Below, piece by piece: positions 13,735 through 47,792 of a stretch of DNA of 64,000 bases (position 1 is its first letter; each line of letters begins with the position of its first letter). The notes under the pieces are model-generated. The model did not search any database, was not told the DNA's origin, and saw only the letters and a list, made by a program, of their open reading frames with translations. The translations under genes and the position numbers were made by a program. This DNA is from Methanohalophilus portucalensis (GTDB lineage: Archaea; Halobacteriota; Methanosarcinia; Methanosarcinales; Methanosarcinaceae): assembly GCF_002761295.1 (NCBI RefSeq), contig NZ_CP017881.1, positions 1,165,069 through 1,229,068 on the forward strand. Direction: 5' to 3'.

Positions 13735-14469
13735 TTAAAATTTATACCAGCTATCACCAACTTTCATATATACACTGCCTGTCAATATCATTGAAGCTAT
13801 GTTTGCAAATGGCACTTTTACATCTAGGCTGCCATCTGAATTTTGTTCCATCCAATAAACAGTTTGAACTCCTATTATGACTAGTGGTCCTAGTATTGCT
13901 GAAGCAAGAGGTGAAATCAAGAGAGCAAGTGCAGCAACTAATCCTCCAGATGCAACTGAACTAGTATTTGCCACATATGAAGCATCAGTTGGGGAGAAAT
14001 ATATATGAACTCCACCAGTAATTAAATTACCATATTGCTCTACATAGCTTCCGTGCCAAAAACTTGACTTCGCTGCAGAAATTGATGCGGCAACTAATTC
14101 ACTATTACTAATAGTTGAAGAAGATAATTGTTTAGTGGTTATTAATTCATTCTGATCTACAAAAGTGAAATATATTTTGTTAGTATTCTTTTCATCTACC
14201 CACGAAATTGCGTATCCAATTGATCCATCATCTTGTACAAAAGATACTATTTTTTCAGTATCAGTTTCTTTCAATACAGTAACATTCTCTGACATTTTCT
14301 TTATTTCCTCTTCATAAATTGAGACTTTGCCAGACATATCTATTGCATCAATATACTCTTCATTTTGAGAAATAGTAGTTTTTGCACTCACAGTTGGCAT
14401 TACCAACATGCTCACAAGAAGCATCACTACGAGCATAACACCCATTCCAGATCTTACATTTGTCTTCAT
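13735..14469 (-). CDS. Exported protein with hydrophobic C-terminal core (bacteriocin-precursor-like architecture)
   Basis: The 244-residue protein has a signal peptide ending near MPTVSAKT (residue 30) and a hydrophilic pro-like region to about residue 150 (SENVTVLKETDTEK, SFVQDDGSIGYAISW). The C-terminal part is glycine/alanine-rich and hydrophobic (SVASGGLVAALALLISPLAS, then AILGPLVIIGVQTVYWM), followed by a beta-rich tail ending GDSWYKF. It leads an operon of small membrane proteins. The plan resembles archaeocin or bacteriocin precursors, but I recognise no named family. Confidence 0.55.
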   Translation of the reverse strand: MKTNVRSGMGVMLVVMLLVSMLVMPTVSAKTTISQNEEYIDAIDMSGKVSIYEEEIKKMSENVTVLKETDTEKIVSFVQDDGSIGYAISWVDEKNTNKIYFTFVDQNELITTKQLSSSTISNSELVAASISAAKSSFWHGSYVEQYGNLITGGVHIYFSPTDASYVANTSSVASGGLVAALALLISPLASAILGPLVIIGVQTVYWMEQNSDGSLDVKVPFANIASMILTGSVYMKVGDSWYKF

Positions 14470-14749
14470 TTAATTTCCTCATTTAATCAATTCATTCAAA
14501 AGCAAAGCTATGCCTGCAATCTCAAACATAGCCCTGCTTCATTCAATGAGTTCAGCCATCATTTTCCGGTAACTGATTCCCACTCCCGAATATCTTAGAG
14601 ATGTTACACCATACTATACGACGATACAATATAAAAATCTTCTAACCAAATCATCAAAATGTTTCTTTTCAGTTGGATGATATGGTCACAAAATTTATAT
14701 CTTATATGTTTCAAATGAAAATTCAAATTATTATTGGAGAATTTTTATT
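14470..14749. promoter_or_regulatory. Divergent promoter region within the island
   Basis: On the minus strand a TATA-like ATTTTTATATTG (rc of about 14625-14638) can drive the exported-protein operon with a leader of about 130 nt. On the plus strand AAATTTATATC (14691-14701) lies about 50 bp before the 14750 start, and TTGGAGAA supplies a ribosome site. No gene was seen in this 280-bp gap. Confidence 0.45.
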
Positions 14750-15169
14750 ATGAGGAAAATTGGACTATTGTTAATGATGCTGATGCTTTCAGTATCTTTT
14801 GCCGGAGCTACAATCAGTCAGGATGGCGAATATACTATCGTTCCTGTCAAGTCAGACAGCAACATAACACCCAGATGGGTTAGCGATACAATTACACAGG
14901 GAGAAACAAACTGGCATGGCAAGTCAGTCAGTTCTTACACAACTTCTCTTCACATAGATTTGAATTGGGGTGACACAAGCGATTCACTCAGGCTAAAAGT
15001 TTACAATCCAAGTAACCAGCTGGTTGGGACATTCTATGATAGTTCTGACGGTGTCATTGATGGAAGAATTAATATTGAGATTAGAAAATCCGGAGGTATT
15101 GATCTCGGAACCTGGCACTATCAGGTTTATGGATACCATGTTACAGGTATAGAAGATTATTATATTTAA
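14750..15169 (+). CDS. Secreted beta-sandwich-like protein, unknown
   Basis: The 139-residue protein has a clear signal peptide (MRKIGLLLMMLMLSVSFAGA) and a mature beta-rich domain with DTITQGETNWHGKSV, TSLHIDLNWGDTSDSL and LRLKVYNPSNQLVGTF. The pattern is like archaeal extracellular pre-peptidase-type beta domains. It is followed after 12 bp by a membrane winged-helix regulator that also begins with a signal peptide and a similar EYxxVP motif. The pair probably acts together. Confidence 0.6.
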   Translation: MRKIGLLLMMLMLSVSFAGATISQDGEYTIVPVKSDSNITPRWVSDTITQGETNWHGKSVSSYTTSLHIDLNWGDTSDSLRLKVYNPSNQLVGTFYDSSDGVIDGRINIEIRKSGGIDLGTWHYQVYGYHVTGIEDYYI

Positions 15170-15181
15170 AAATCATTTTAA

Positions 15182-15913
15182 GTGAATATGAATAAATTAC
15201 GGTTTGTATTTTTATTTCTCATACTTGTTTGCAATCCCACATTTGCCGGTGCAAATGAATATGAAGTTGTCCCATACACAGGTCCGGAAAGAGGGATGTA
15301 TGAAGGAGGTGGTGCCGACACCACTCTTTCTTTTTCTGAGCTCCCGTTGTCTCTTCAAATCGTTTATATTTCCGGGCTGTTGGGTGTCTCGATAGTTTTT
15401 TACAAATTCTTACCTTTGTTTTTGGGAAGAATAAAACGAAAATGTACGAACCCCAATAGAGATAAAATTCTTAGCTACATAGTAGTCAATCCCGGAAACA
15501 CAATAGCTGATATTGAAAAAGATCTTGGATTGAACAGAAGTAGCATTCGTCATCATGTGAGGATGCTTCATTTGTACAACAAAATAAGTATTGTAAAAAA
15601 ATGTAAGTTCACACTTCTTTTTGAGAATTCAGATAATTATACAGGAATCGAACAGAAAATTGCATTTGCTATGCGGAATAGTACAAGAAAATCAATTTTG
15701 ACATCCATAGTTCAAAACCCAGGAATAACTAATCAGGAAATCACAGAGACTTTTGACATCGATAAAAGTACTGTGCATTGGCATATTAGTGATATGTATA
15801 ATGAAGAACTTATAGATTTTGATAATGATGGAAAATTCAAAAGATATTTCCTTAAACCATCAATAGAAAAAAATGTAGAAAAAATTTTAATAATGTCGGA
15901 AACTGAAATCTAA
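15182..15913 (+). CDS. Membrane-anchored regulator with two winged-helix domains
   Basis: The 243-residue protein has a signal-like segment (1-22, ending FAGA), a short outer region with EYEVVPYTGPE, and a transmembrane helix at about residues 60-82. Two winged HTH domains follow: ILSYIVVNPGNTIADIEKDL with LNRSSIRHHVRML, and SILTSIVQNPGITNQEI with DIDKSTVHWHISDM. DNA-binding domains facing the cytoplasm behind an exported sensor suggest a one-component sensor, a design common in Methanosarcinaceae. Co-transcription with the secreted protein at 14750 suggests that protein or its ligand is the signal. Confidence 0.75.
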   Translation: MNMNKLRFVFLFLILVCNPTFAGANEYEVVPYTGPERGMYEGGGADTTLSFSELPLSLQIVYISGLLGVSIVFYKFLPLFLGRIKRKCTNPNRDKILSYIVVNPGNTIADIEKDLGLNRSSIRHHVRMLHLYNKISIVKKCKFTLLFENSDNYTGIEQKIAFAMRNSTRKSILTSIVQNPGITNQEITETFDIDKSTVHWHISDMYNEELIDFDNDGKFKRYFLKPSIEKNVEKILIMSETEI

Positions 15914-25061: not shown

Positions 25062-26279
25062 TTATGGCAAAAACCTTGAGAGCGTTGTTTGCTCCTTTAC
25101 ATAAGGCAGAAGCTCTGATTTTTCTCTCCACTGGTAGAAAGGCGTATTGATGCGTGTCTTCATATGCATCAGTGCTTCTTCCAGGGTTTCAAAAGAATCC
25201 GGCTCTGTTGAAAGAGCATTGCGTGCTGCTTCTCTGACAACCCATACTCCCAGGGGTGCCCAGTAATCAGGAGTAATCTCCCTGATTGCAAATACTGCAG
25301 CCTGCTTTCTTATGCTCTCAAGTTTTTCCAGAACCGGCAGCCGGGCTGCATAATATCCTCCTGCCAGGGGTGAGTATCCTTTCTTGCCTGAAGTTCCTTC
25401 CATGTCCTGTCCTATCCAGGCTTTGTCTGCAGACCACACCGTACGTGCCATCCACAACTCCAGCAATTCAAAAGAATAACTCCTGGGTATCAACAGTATT
25501 TCAAAATGGTTTCCAAGATTACCACCGCTGTATAGTTGTATGTCCTTTATTTCAGGGTAATCCAGTAAACCCTTTGCCAGCTCTTTGCCCACCATGTCAT
25601 CTGTGGCGGTAATTGCCCAGCGTGTGGGGACAAGTTTTCTTTCCTGTCCAAGCAATCCGATGGAAAGAAGTCGGGTAATATGTTCACAGCCAACATCATG
25701 GCCATAAAGTTCCAGGGCAGCATCCGTGGCCTTTACATCGGTATCATAGGTCAGGTAGTCAACTTTACCAGGAACCTTCGGGTTTTCTGCGATATCAAAA
25801 CTTTCCATTTTTCCGGCCGGTCCCATCGGTGTGAGTACACCATCGAATTTTTGGGCAGGTTTTAAGGGTTTGCTGAGCAACGCTTCTGTATCCACAGGTT
25901 TGCGGGAAAGTGCCATTTCCTGGGCTTTTTCTATCAGGCGGCTTTTTTCAAATTGTTTTACTTTGACAGTGGTGTTAGCCCGTACCAGCTGGCACCTTTT
26001 TTGTATGATATCGTCTATTCCCATGTCAAGTAGTGCATGAGGGTCCTCCAGCTGTGCAGCGTCCTCACTTTCCAGTAAAGGAGGTATCATGGGTCCGGCA
26101 CTTATCTCGGGATATCCATACCTACCAACAAATACAGCAGGTGGAGATGCTCCAAAAATAGTTTTTTCCCCTTGCTTTTGAGGGGAATATTTGGCGGTGG
26201 CCCTGAACTTTTCAAGTATGGGACACCGCGCTCTTCCGCAAAGTCCTTTCCCTTTACATTCAATACACCGGTTTTTCAA
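25062..26279 (-). CDS. nreA: NreA-type DNA repair protein with PCNA-interaction motif
   Basis: The 405-residue protein starts with a zinc-finger-like CIECKGKGLCGRARCPI and continues IFGASPPAVFVGRYGYP, the Nre family signature. The C-terminus ends QTTLSRFLP, a PIP-box-like Q-x2-L-x2-F motif that in haloarchaeal NreA binds PCNA. The family is linked to repair of DNA damage. It overlaps the upstream HTH gene by 4 bp, so that regulator may control it or simply share its transcript. Confidence 0.9.
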   Translation of the reverse strand: MKNRCIECKGKGLCGRARCPILEKFRATAKYSPQKQGEKTIFGASPPAVFVGRYGYPEISAGPMIPPLLESEDAAQLEDPHALLDMGIDDIIQKRCQLVRANTTVKVKQFEKSRLIEKAQEMALSRKPVDTEALLSKPLKPAQKFDGVLTPMGPAGKMESFDIAENPKVPGKVDYLTYDTDVKATDAALELYGHDVGCEHITRLLSIGLLGQERKLVPTRWAITATDDMVGKELAKGLLDYPEIKDIQLYSGGNLGNHFEILLIPRSYSFELLELWMARTVWSADKAWIGQDMEGTSGKKGYSPLAGGYYAARLPVLEKLESIRKQAAVFAIREITPDYWAPLGVWVVREAARNALSTEPDSFETLEEALMHMKTRINTPFYQWREKSELLPYVKEQTTLSRFLP

Positions 26280-46763: not shown

Positions 46764-47792
46764 TTAGTATGTCCAGTTCTTTGCTGCTTCGATCATTGCC
46801 TGAAGGTTCTGGGTAGGAGTCTTGCTCACAATACCGCAACCCGGTGCGAGAAGCTGTACTCCTGCATCGAGAACTCTCTTGGATTCTTCCTTTACACCTT
46901 CGACATTGTCTTCGCCCTGGTTCCATAGAACACTTACAGGGTCGAGGTTACCTAAGATGAGGGCCTTGTCCACATTCTCAACTGCTGCTACAGGGTCGAC
47001 ATTCTGGTCTACACTGATTGCATCTACGCCGCAGGTTTCCATGATCGCAAGTCCGTTAGTTGTGTCTCCGCAGATGTGGAGGATGGATGGTATACCTTTC
47101 TCGTGGAGTGCTTCAACAATCTTCTGGTGGAATGGAACTACGAAAGTCTTGTAGAAGTCAGCACCAATAAGCTGGTAGCTGGCTGTTGGATCAATGATTG
47201 CAAAGGTGTCGGCACCGTTCTCGACCTGCTTGAGGGCGTACTGTGTGCAGAACTCAGTGGTGAATTCCATGAGTTTGAGGCCAAATTCCTGGTCTGTCAT
47301 GATGTTCATGAACCAGGAGTCACCATTAAGGTGCTGTGCGAGGGAGAATGGTCCGATCATACTGCCGATGATTGGAAGTTCGTCGCCGTATTTGTCTGCG
47401 AGGATCTTGACTGCCTGACATACGTTTCCGATCCTGCCGTCTTCGATGTTGTAACCTTCGAATTGTTCGAGGTCTTCGGCCTTGCTGACAACGTGGCTGA
47501 TAACGGATGGCTGCTGTTCCTTGGTACTTGGCTTGATTCCGCATCCGAAAAATTCTGCTTCTGCTGTGATGTCGAAAGGAACACGTACTGCTTCAAATCC
47601 TACAACTGTGTGGCCTGCTTCTGCCAGTGCTGCCATTTTTACAGGGTCTTCGTGAGCTTCTGGCCAGTAAGCATCTACTGCATCCATCTGTTCTACTGTT
47701 CCTGTCTGGGTGGCACAGATAGCAGGCATCCTGTCTACTTCTTCACCTGCAAATACGCGTGCTAATCTCTCTTTGGGTGTATATTCAACCAT
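46764..47792 (-). CDS. mtbA: Methylcobamide:CoM methyltransferase, probably MtbA
   Basis: The 342-residue uroporphyrinogen-decarboxylase-fold enzyme moves a methyl group from a corrinoid protein to coenzyme M using zinc. Visible zinc-site parts are HICGDTTN and [13 protein letters not shown] (His-x-Cys...Cys). MtaA (methanol) and MtbA (methylamines) are close paralogues; the adjacent pyl genes favour MtbA. It has its own promoter: on the minus strand AGATATATATATGC at about 47850-47863, and an AAGGAG ribosome site. Confidence 0.8.

Follow-up and report, generated by a model that had tools for sequence, protein, structure and literature searches.

The window analysed in this study, a stretch of 64,000 nucleotides from the genome of Methanohalophilus portucalensis (2.08 Mb), contains a tandem of two genes, the first of which encodes a small exported protein, referred to as SEC, and the second a winged-helix regulator with a transmembrane (TM) helix, referred to as REG, with 18 nt separating the stop codon of SEC from the ATG of REG. 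Upstream of both genes, a candidate operator dyad is located between two TATA-like boxes, one directed towards SEC and REG and the other towards a divergent gene (Table 1).

Table 1. Features of the SEC-REG locus in window coordinates and, in the last four rows, examples of the leader RNA at other loci
Feature	Position	Strand	Remarks
SEC	14750..15169	+	139-aa exported protein; signal peptide at about residues 1-20; predicted PPC-like beta-jelly-roll at about residues 44-139
EYTIVP post-signal motif of SEC	14828..14845	+	residues 27-32
REG	15188..15913 (ATG)	+	241 aa; GTG start at 15182 possible
EYEVVP post-signal motif of REG	15257..15274	+	Y25 and P29 at least 90% conserved in 23 aligned REGs
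Left half-site of candidate operator dyad, CATTTTGATGATTTGG	14646..14661	-	faces divergent gene; 3 mismatches to right arm
Right half-site of candidate operator dyad, CAGTTGGATGATATGG	14670..14685	+	faces SEC and REG
TATA-like box TTTATATC	14694..14701	+	8 nt past right half-site; likely promoter of SEC and REG, from sequence and conservation
TATA-like box TTTTTATA	14630..14637	-	past left half-site; likely promoter of divergent exported gene, from sequence and conservation
Divergent gene	13735..14469	-	exported-type, 244 aa; a single Pfam match, below cut-off
Degenerate candidate leader RNA copy	14476..14586	-	5' leader of divergent gene, aligned; uncertain, not among matches at E <= 0.001
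Leader RNA, about 112 nt, L087	3763-3874	-	
Leader RNA, about 112 nt, L088	6590-6701	-	
Leader RNA, about 112 nt, L105	6727-6834	-	
Leader RNA, about 112 nt, G000:C1 (genome of M. portucalensis)	2054400-2054513		

The initial annotation had placed both open reading frames at these positions and had assigned two winged HTH domains behind a TM helix to REG, which is borne out by Pfam and hydropathy. The chain of REG starts with an N-terminal signal or TM segment, after which the stretch NEYEVVPYTG is found, and it continues with an outer loop of about 35 residues, a TM helix at about residues 58-80 and two winged HTH domains that match the Pfam families HTH_5 (residues 88-128, E 1.9e-9) and HTH_24 (residues 164-209, E 2e-15) above their cut-offs. 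The hydrophobic segment around residues 58-80 was recognised by eye in the window protein and the same segment was scored in relatives by a hydropathy scan. In an AlphaFold2 read-through model, for which the operon was translated as a single chain and aligned with the help of 18 read-through operons and 22 of 32 other pairs, a long helix at residues 54-85 (200-231 in fusion numbering) precedes two winged-HTH-like units. The best relatives of REG with known structure are mostly proteins of the ArsR/MarR type, matched one domain at a time. REG thus combines a DNA-binding domain with at least one TM segment, the features that define a one-component transmembrane transcription regulator. Relatives with other outer parts also exist: in one of them (L182, 823-3186, forward strand) a region of about 600 residues that by eye resembles a beta-propeller replaces the short loop, in appearance a swap of outer domains within this regulator family, and in another (L183, 1204-2235, reverse strand) an extra outer part containing VFVTEEDIKNNPAFQ resembles small membrane proteins encoded near orphan REGs (L059, 5420-5800; L072, 2380-2772).

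In SEC, the signal peptide is followed by the stretch GEYTIVPVKS. An AlphaFold2 model obtained from 22 sequences (pLDDT 83) shows a beta-sandwich whose top structural match is the jelly roll of Tk-SP (PDB 3afg, Z 11.0), followed at lower scores by subtilase tails and by collagen-binding and PPC domains (Z 8.6-9.1), including the PPC domain of the Bacillus anthracis collagenase (5sv5, Z 8.6). GOLD domains of p24 proteins score as high (Z 9.8) and the fold alone can thus not single out PPC. The sequence of the window protein matches no Pfam family at E <= 1, PPC (PF04151) included, and a sequence search of the PDB gave a single match at E 0.17 that is not meaningful; PF04151 is detected at E <= 1 in 6 of the 22 aligned relatives, with a best value of 4.1e-5. 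SEC is accordingly described here as a predicted PPC-like jelly roll. In distant SECs the N-terminal parts are longer and variable, and the PPC-like tail is kept together with the REG neighbour in most of 20 stretches, among which L158-L161 encode larger proteins without REG.

The arrangement of the two genes is conserved. A search of 60 relatives identified SEC at 26 places in 23 genomes and REG in 29 genomes, with REG directly downstream of SEC on the same strand at 22 of these 26 places, at one of which (L007) just the C-terminal part of REG remains. The other four places contain a decayed REG (L015), no REG that we could see (L026), the end of a contig (L018) or an unrelated weak match at a contig end (L023). 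Of the 26 places, 22 entered the SEC alignment (L016, L022, L023 and L025 being broken, N-terminally incomplete or unrelated), and the REG alignment omits the REGs of L003, L007 and L010, which carry a stop or a deletion. In a named collection of 73 loci, several of which are the same contigs as in the search of the 60 relatives, the tandem is present at 63, amounting to 67 pairs in total. The remainder includes five loci where the sequence ends at SEC or a few hundred bases beyond (L093, L105, L111, L132, L143), a REG that has lost its N-terminus (L079), a REG beside a broken SEC (L124) and three loci with room downstream of SEC and no REG match (L139, L146, L148). On the scale of the phylum (294 genomes), SEC is found in 85 genomes and REG (E <= 1e-12) in 147; among the listed SEC places, REG directly follows at no fewer than 56 of the strongest 60.

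Several loci show unusual arrangements. In a Methanoculleus MAG, three pairs are located within about 6.5 kb (L118, 3338-9898), and two Methanosarcina loci contain two pairs each (L123 and L133, with the first SEC of L133 partial). At L205 (5062-5791), SEC lacks its end and REG its N-terminal half, with the operator retained. Contigs labelled WOR-3, Cloacimonadota and Bacteroidaceae (L093, L098, L125) carry all or part of this archaeal pair and are probably misbinned MAG contigs. At nine loci (L108, L112, L117, L123, L128, L130, L140, L145, L061) the pair is found beside genes of ABC permeases and of a large exported membrane protein, and many such permease-adjacent pairs come from Methanosarcina and Methanoperedens. 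These neighbours were not retained as a defining context of the pair, as the permease and large-protein clusters, found in 19 and 20 loci, are absent from the 13-kb stretch taken from the window.

The sequence upstream of SEC points to a regulatory site. The two half-sites at 14646-14685, separated by a spacer of 8 nt, form, just ahead of the TATA-like box, the one conserved block that the window and seven relatives share upstream of SEC, and in L005 and L006 the arms of the dyad extend to 19 bp and are perfect, again with a spacer of 8 nt. Within its own genome the dyad is single-copy at up to 3 mismatches, with no hit in the reversed control. Its core pattern, searched at up to 2 mismatches in the 60 relatives, occurs at eight places in seven genomes, none in the reversed control, and seven of these are directly upstream of SEC. 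The eighth (G001) precedes, at a distance of 193 bp, an exported-type gene that matches Peptidase_C39_2 and of which the divergent SEC neighbour at L077 is a sequence relative. In the other 16 of the 23 SEC-bearing genomes, no core dyad was found at this threshold; in several clades dyads of other sequence occupy a similar place (for example L099, L100 and L129, 14 of 14), and some clades have none. We consider the dyad to be the likely operator of SEC and REG. The initial annotation had proposed the promoter at 14690-14749 as the target of REG, and an operator within the promoter indeed appears likely, with its position shifted to the region upstream of the TATA-like box.

A half-site model derived from the arms of Methanohalophilus and Methanococcoides was applied to SEC loci of other genera, where it exceeded all 200 shuffles at 15 of 60 loci, compared to an expected 0.3, and did not exceed all of them at the other 45. 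The best 8 of 436 control regions all precede genes that by eye have an exported-type N-terminus, one of them the divergent SEC neighbour at L081. A scan for promoters of the sigma-70 style found 9 where 8.5 are expected, with a model that is unsuited to archaea.

The genes that diverge from SEC are predominantly of exported type. At 71 SEC loci, the nearest upstream gene is divergent in 42, codirectional in 21 and not available in 8 cases. Among divergent neighbours within 700 bp, 27 of 38 are exported-type (counting L129 twice due to its split SEC), compared to 216 of 713 in a background that includes them, and they belong to varying families. The divergent gene of the window is in this respect probably a co-regulated cargo. 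The leaders of such genes share a structured element of about 112 nt, which consists of two helices, H1 (GGRGTTCA/TGAACYCC) and H2 (CCCGGAGGCA/TGCCTCYGG), and an inner helix. Since the 26 leader sequences, the one of the window excepted, were gathered by a search in which parts of the helices were prescribed, their conservation is partly by construction. Changes on both sides of a pair are found for 11 of 25 pairs and are distributed across all three helices, a number that is reached in 1 of 500 shuffles; for further pair types, shuffling yields counts as high (reached in 377 of 500), and in slid controls the paired fraction falls to 25-53%. No Rfam 15 family matched the leader at threshold in 10 loci, and in the window between 12000 and 16500 three Rfam matches up to E 1 are all below their family thresholds. 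With a covariance model limited to 102 scored candidates per genome, the leader was detected in at least 21 of 37 genomes and at least 14 of 24 genera, with at least 11 places in the genome of M. portucalensis, which do not include the weak copy of the window, and at least 19 matches in G003, three of which are overlaps on the opposite strand. At 26 of 30 leader loci an exported-type gene starts within 20 nt, and at the other four there is no ORF of 60 aa at this position. The element may represent a new family of RNAs by which the mRNAs of exported proteins are marked.

The half-site of the dyad reappears upstream of some of these leaders. The relationship was investigated with a hand-picked set of 73 sense leaders (E up to about 2e-6), from which weaker and opposite-strand overlapping matches were omitted, and with 126 half-sites found at up to 1 mismatch in 30 genomes. 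A half-site is located 39-87 bp upstream of 26 of the 73 leaders, where uniform placement predicts 0.058, and in 21 cases the distance is 59-66 bp; the nearest half-site has the same orientation in all 26, which are not independent, as 3 belong to divergent SEC neighbours and a large part consists of tandem copies or orthologues. The linked half-sites are found in 10 genomes, every one of which has a match to REG, in the case of G002 a remnant or fragment. Conversely, five leader-bearing genomes without linked half-sites (G004, G008, G037, G042, G045) have no REG match, a comparison that comprises 15 related genomes and in which the SEC of G008 is at a contig end beyond which REG could be located. 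The association is incomplete in both directions, with 95 of the 126 half-sites not linked to leaders and no half-site within 250 bp of 47 of the 73 leaders, and the leader is thus not a feature of REG targets only. In the genome of M. portucalensis, linked half-sites are located at 25091, 47559, 48850 and 2056169. The leaders at 47387 and 2056243 are not followed by any ORF of 60 aa in our scan, and some targets may thus be broken. Six other leaders of this genome (1268016, 1271621, 1274082, 1737044, 1740395, 1745142) precede exported-type genes without a REG half-site and have other upstream sequences in common, either AATATATAC.ATCAC.TCGAATGAGAATTT.CAATGT or TATATA..ATTACATTATAGTATTTT.CAATGT, which again shows that the leader is not confined to REG targets and may hint at a second regulator.

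The operon and its motif, the predicted fold of SEC, the dyad, the association of half-sites with leaders and exported-type genes and its co-occurrence with REG, all established by computation, are in our view best explained if the two genes form a one-component signalling operon of methanogenic archaea in which REG, tethered to the membrane, regulates both its own expression and a regulon of exported-protein genes, with SEC as exported partner, a reading to which we assign a probability of roughly 60%. In this mechanism, REG would be a membrane protein that exposes a short loop on the outside and holds its two winged HTH domains in the cytoplasm, where these would bind the 16-bp half-site immediately ahead of the TATA box. 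The promoter of REG itself contains two such half-sites back to back, where they would serve SEC and REG on one side and the divergent exported-protein gene on the other, and where REG presumably binds as a dimer because two tandem winged HTH domains per chain fit a dyad of 40-46 bp. Elsewhere, single half-sites would recruit REG to genes of exported proteins whose transcripts start with the structured leader. Archaeal activators usually bind directly upstream of the TATA box, and the fixed position and orientation of the half-site upstream of this element point to REG as an activator. Located between divergent promoters, the dyad would drive expression of exported cargo in one direction and of SEC and REG in the other and thereby establish positive feedback; such autoregulation would agree with the conserved dyad in the promoter of REG and with the co-occurrence of leader-linked half-sites and REG. 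SEC, in turn, would probably report cell-surface conditions to REG or modulate this signal. The signalling pair from the outside to DNA that had been proposed in the initial annotation remains the best reading, with the contacts of REG to DNA and to SEC and the activation by REG as its conjectural parts.

For SEC, another role is conceivable. REG might control the regulon by sensing the envelope with its own loop and TM helices, and SEC would then be just a co-transcribed surface output that does not participate in sensing, which we regard as a plausible but less probable explanation. It would account for the properties of G017, where a SEC-sized match is absent and just a PPC-like stretch is found in a frame of 1861 residues, and where two motif-bearing REGs are retained together with leaders and with half-sites that precede the two genes by about 45 and 180 bp, so that SEC is not needed for the circuit. 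It also agrees with the plain exported-type proteins encoded by other half-site genes and with the read-through model, in which the strand of SEC stays in place, the motif of REG is disordered (pLDDT < 50) and a lone bridge is found at fusion residue 173; a contact between the two proteins cannot be deduced from this model. Against it, a mere output would be expected to show the same free exchange as the divergent cargo, whereas SEC is seldom found without an adjacent REG, stays the first gene of the operon across distant groups and shares the outer motif of REG.

This motif, noted in the initial annotation as EYxxVP after the signal of both proteins, is real and kept in both families. In the 50 of 67 tandem pairs where both N-termini are covered (17 were dropped), Yx[VI]xP is present in 39 SECs and 41 REGs, in both members of 36 pairs and in neither of 6, compared to means of 0.9 of 50 (maximum 5) and 1.4 of 50 (maximum 7) in 2000 shuffles of SEC and REG, respectively; the pairs are related and the counts thus not independent. 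P32 of SEC is at least 90% conserved in the alignment. The relationship had been made dependent on a conserved pair and on the presence of the motif in homologues, and the pair is widespread and the motif found in both families. Two further proposals did not hold. The distance from the cleavage region is not the same, since the tyrosine is residue 28 in SEC and 25 in REG of the window, where FAGA ends at about residue 20 in both, and since across the family the offset from the start of the segment varies between 25 and 46 in SEC and between 17 and 34 in REG. For a common ancestry of the exported parts there is no support beyond the five-residue motif, outside which the conserved blocks of the two families differ, and an inspection of 36 stretches containing long or distant matches revealed no SEC-REG gene fusion. 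Among these, L179-L181 have long frames that resemble read-through in high-GC sequence, L182 contains the propeller-like outer part described above, and L184 overlaps SEC in another frame.

A common interaction partner, the other possibility raised in the initial annotation, or a direct contact between SEC and REG may underlie the motif. A recycled export leader that was copied between genes, or a general tag for processing or surface docking, would leave it uninformative on such a contact, an explanation that we hold to be rather unlikely. It would be consistent with the limitation of the similarity to five residues at varying offsets and with the retention of the motif in REGs without SEC neighbour. 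Cognate pairs match in 75 of 144 variable positions, which none of 5000 free shuffles but 443 of 5000 shuffles within groups reach, so that the matching is explained by group and was discarded as evidence for contact, an outcome that also agrees with SEC as a mere output. In conflict with a recycled leader, the motif is maintained in both families across distant groups, and the strict form is missing from both members together in the six motif-free pairs, three of which are from Methanolobus. In G089 and G267, SECs without the motif are accompanied by REGs with a reduced TxxPA form. Residues 29-32 of SEC are moreover predicted as a short strand, with low confidence, both in the model of the protein alone and in the read-through model. 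As a more specific and distinctly improbable version of the favoured mechanism, this strand would close the PPC jelly roll of SEC itself and could be replaced by a like strand on the outer loop of REG, with the state of the surface selecting the bound strand and thereby setting the REG dimer, which would switch the regulon of exported proteins with the new leader RNA. Finally, a different transcription factor that binds the dyad and half-sites and for which SEC and REG are merely one target is very unlikely: the binding of REG to the half-site is itself putative, and genomes that lack a REG match contain half-site-like sequences as well, but there they are not linked to leaders, whereas leader-linked half-sites track REG, half-sites also precede REGs without SEC, and two winged HTH domains per chain would suit the dyad.

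Collectively, the signalling operon with SEC as partner describes a candidate route from the archaeal cell surface to DNA outside two-component systems, which is a poorly known area, and it would place many exported proteins of methanogens without known function or regulation into one regulon. The regulator is widespread, its proposed DNA site is precisely defined, and the candidate targets and the leader RNA that they share can likewise be studied by genetics in Methanosarcina. In a literature search that covered mainly openly accessible papers, we recognised no description of the pair, the half-site or the leader RNA, and novelty is in this respect not proven.

The comparison with known systems illustrates both familiar and distinct features. 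ToxR and CadC contain an N-terminal winged HTH domain of the OmpR type and a large periplasmic domain, and the gene of ToxR in Vibrio adjoins that of its partner ToxS. Both resemble REG as membrane-tethered winged HTH regulators, and ToxR also in its adjoining partner gene. In contrast to the order of DNA-binding domain, TM segment and periplasmic domain in these proteins, REG contains a C-terminal pair of ArsR/MarR-like winged HTH domains behind its TM helix and a loop of about 35 residues, with SEC as PPC-like jelly roll by prediction. ArnR and ArnR1 of Sulfolobus are archaeal membrane-bound one-component regulators with an N-terminal winged HTH domain and C-terminal TM helices, and they share this general type with REG, whereas their domain order is reversed and they are not known to have a SEC partner. 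Closest in kind are the transmembrane transcription regulators that are enriched in Methanomicrobia (PMC10269533) and that combine a DNA-binding domain and a TM segment in one chain as found in REG. In the accessible part of that work, their archaeal members are described without the exported partner gene, operator or leader-RNA regulon that distinguish the SEC-REG pair. The predicted fold of SEC, in turn, is that of PPC and subtilase jelly-roll domains (PF04151; 3afg, 5sv5), with the difference that SEC would be a stand-alone exported PPC-like domain encoded in an operon with a regulator, as opposed to a protease tail.
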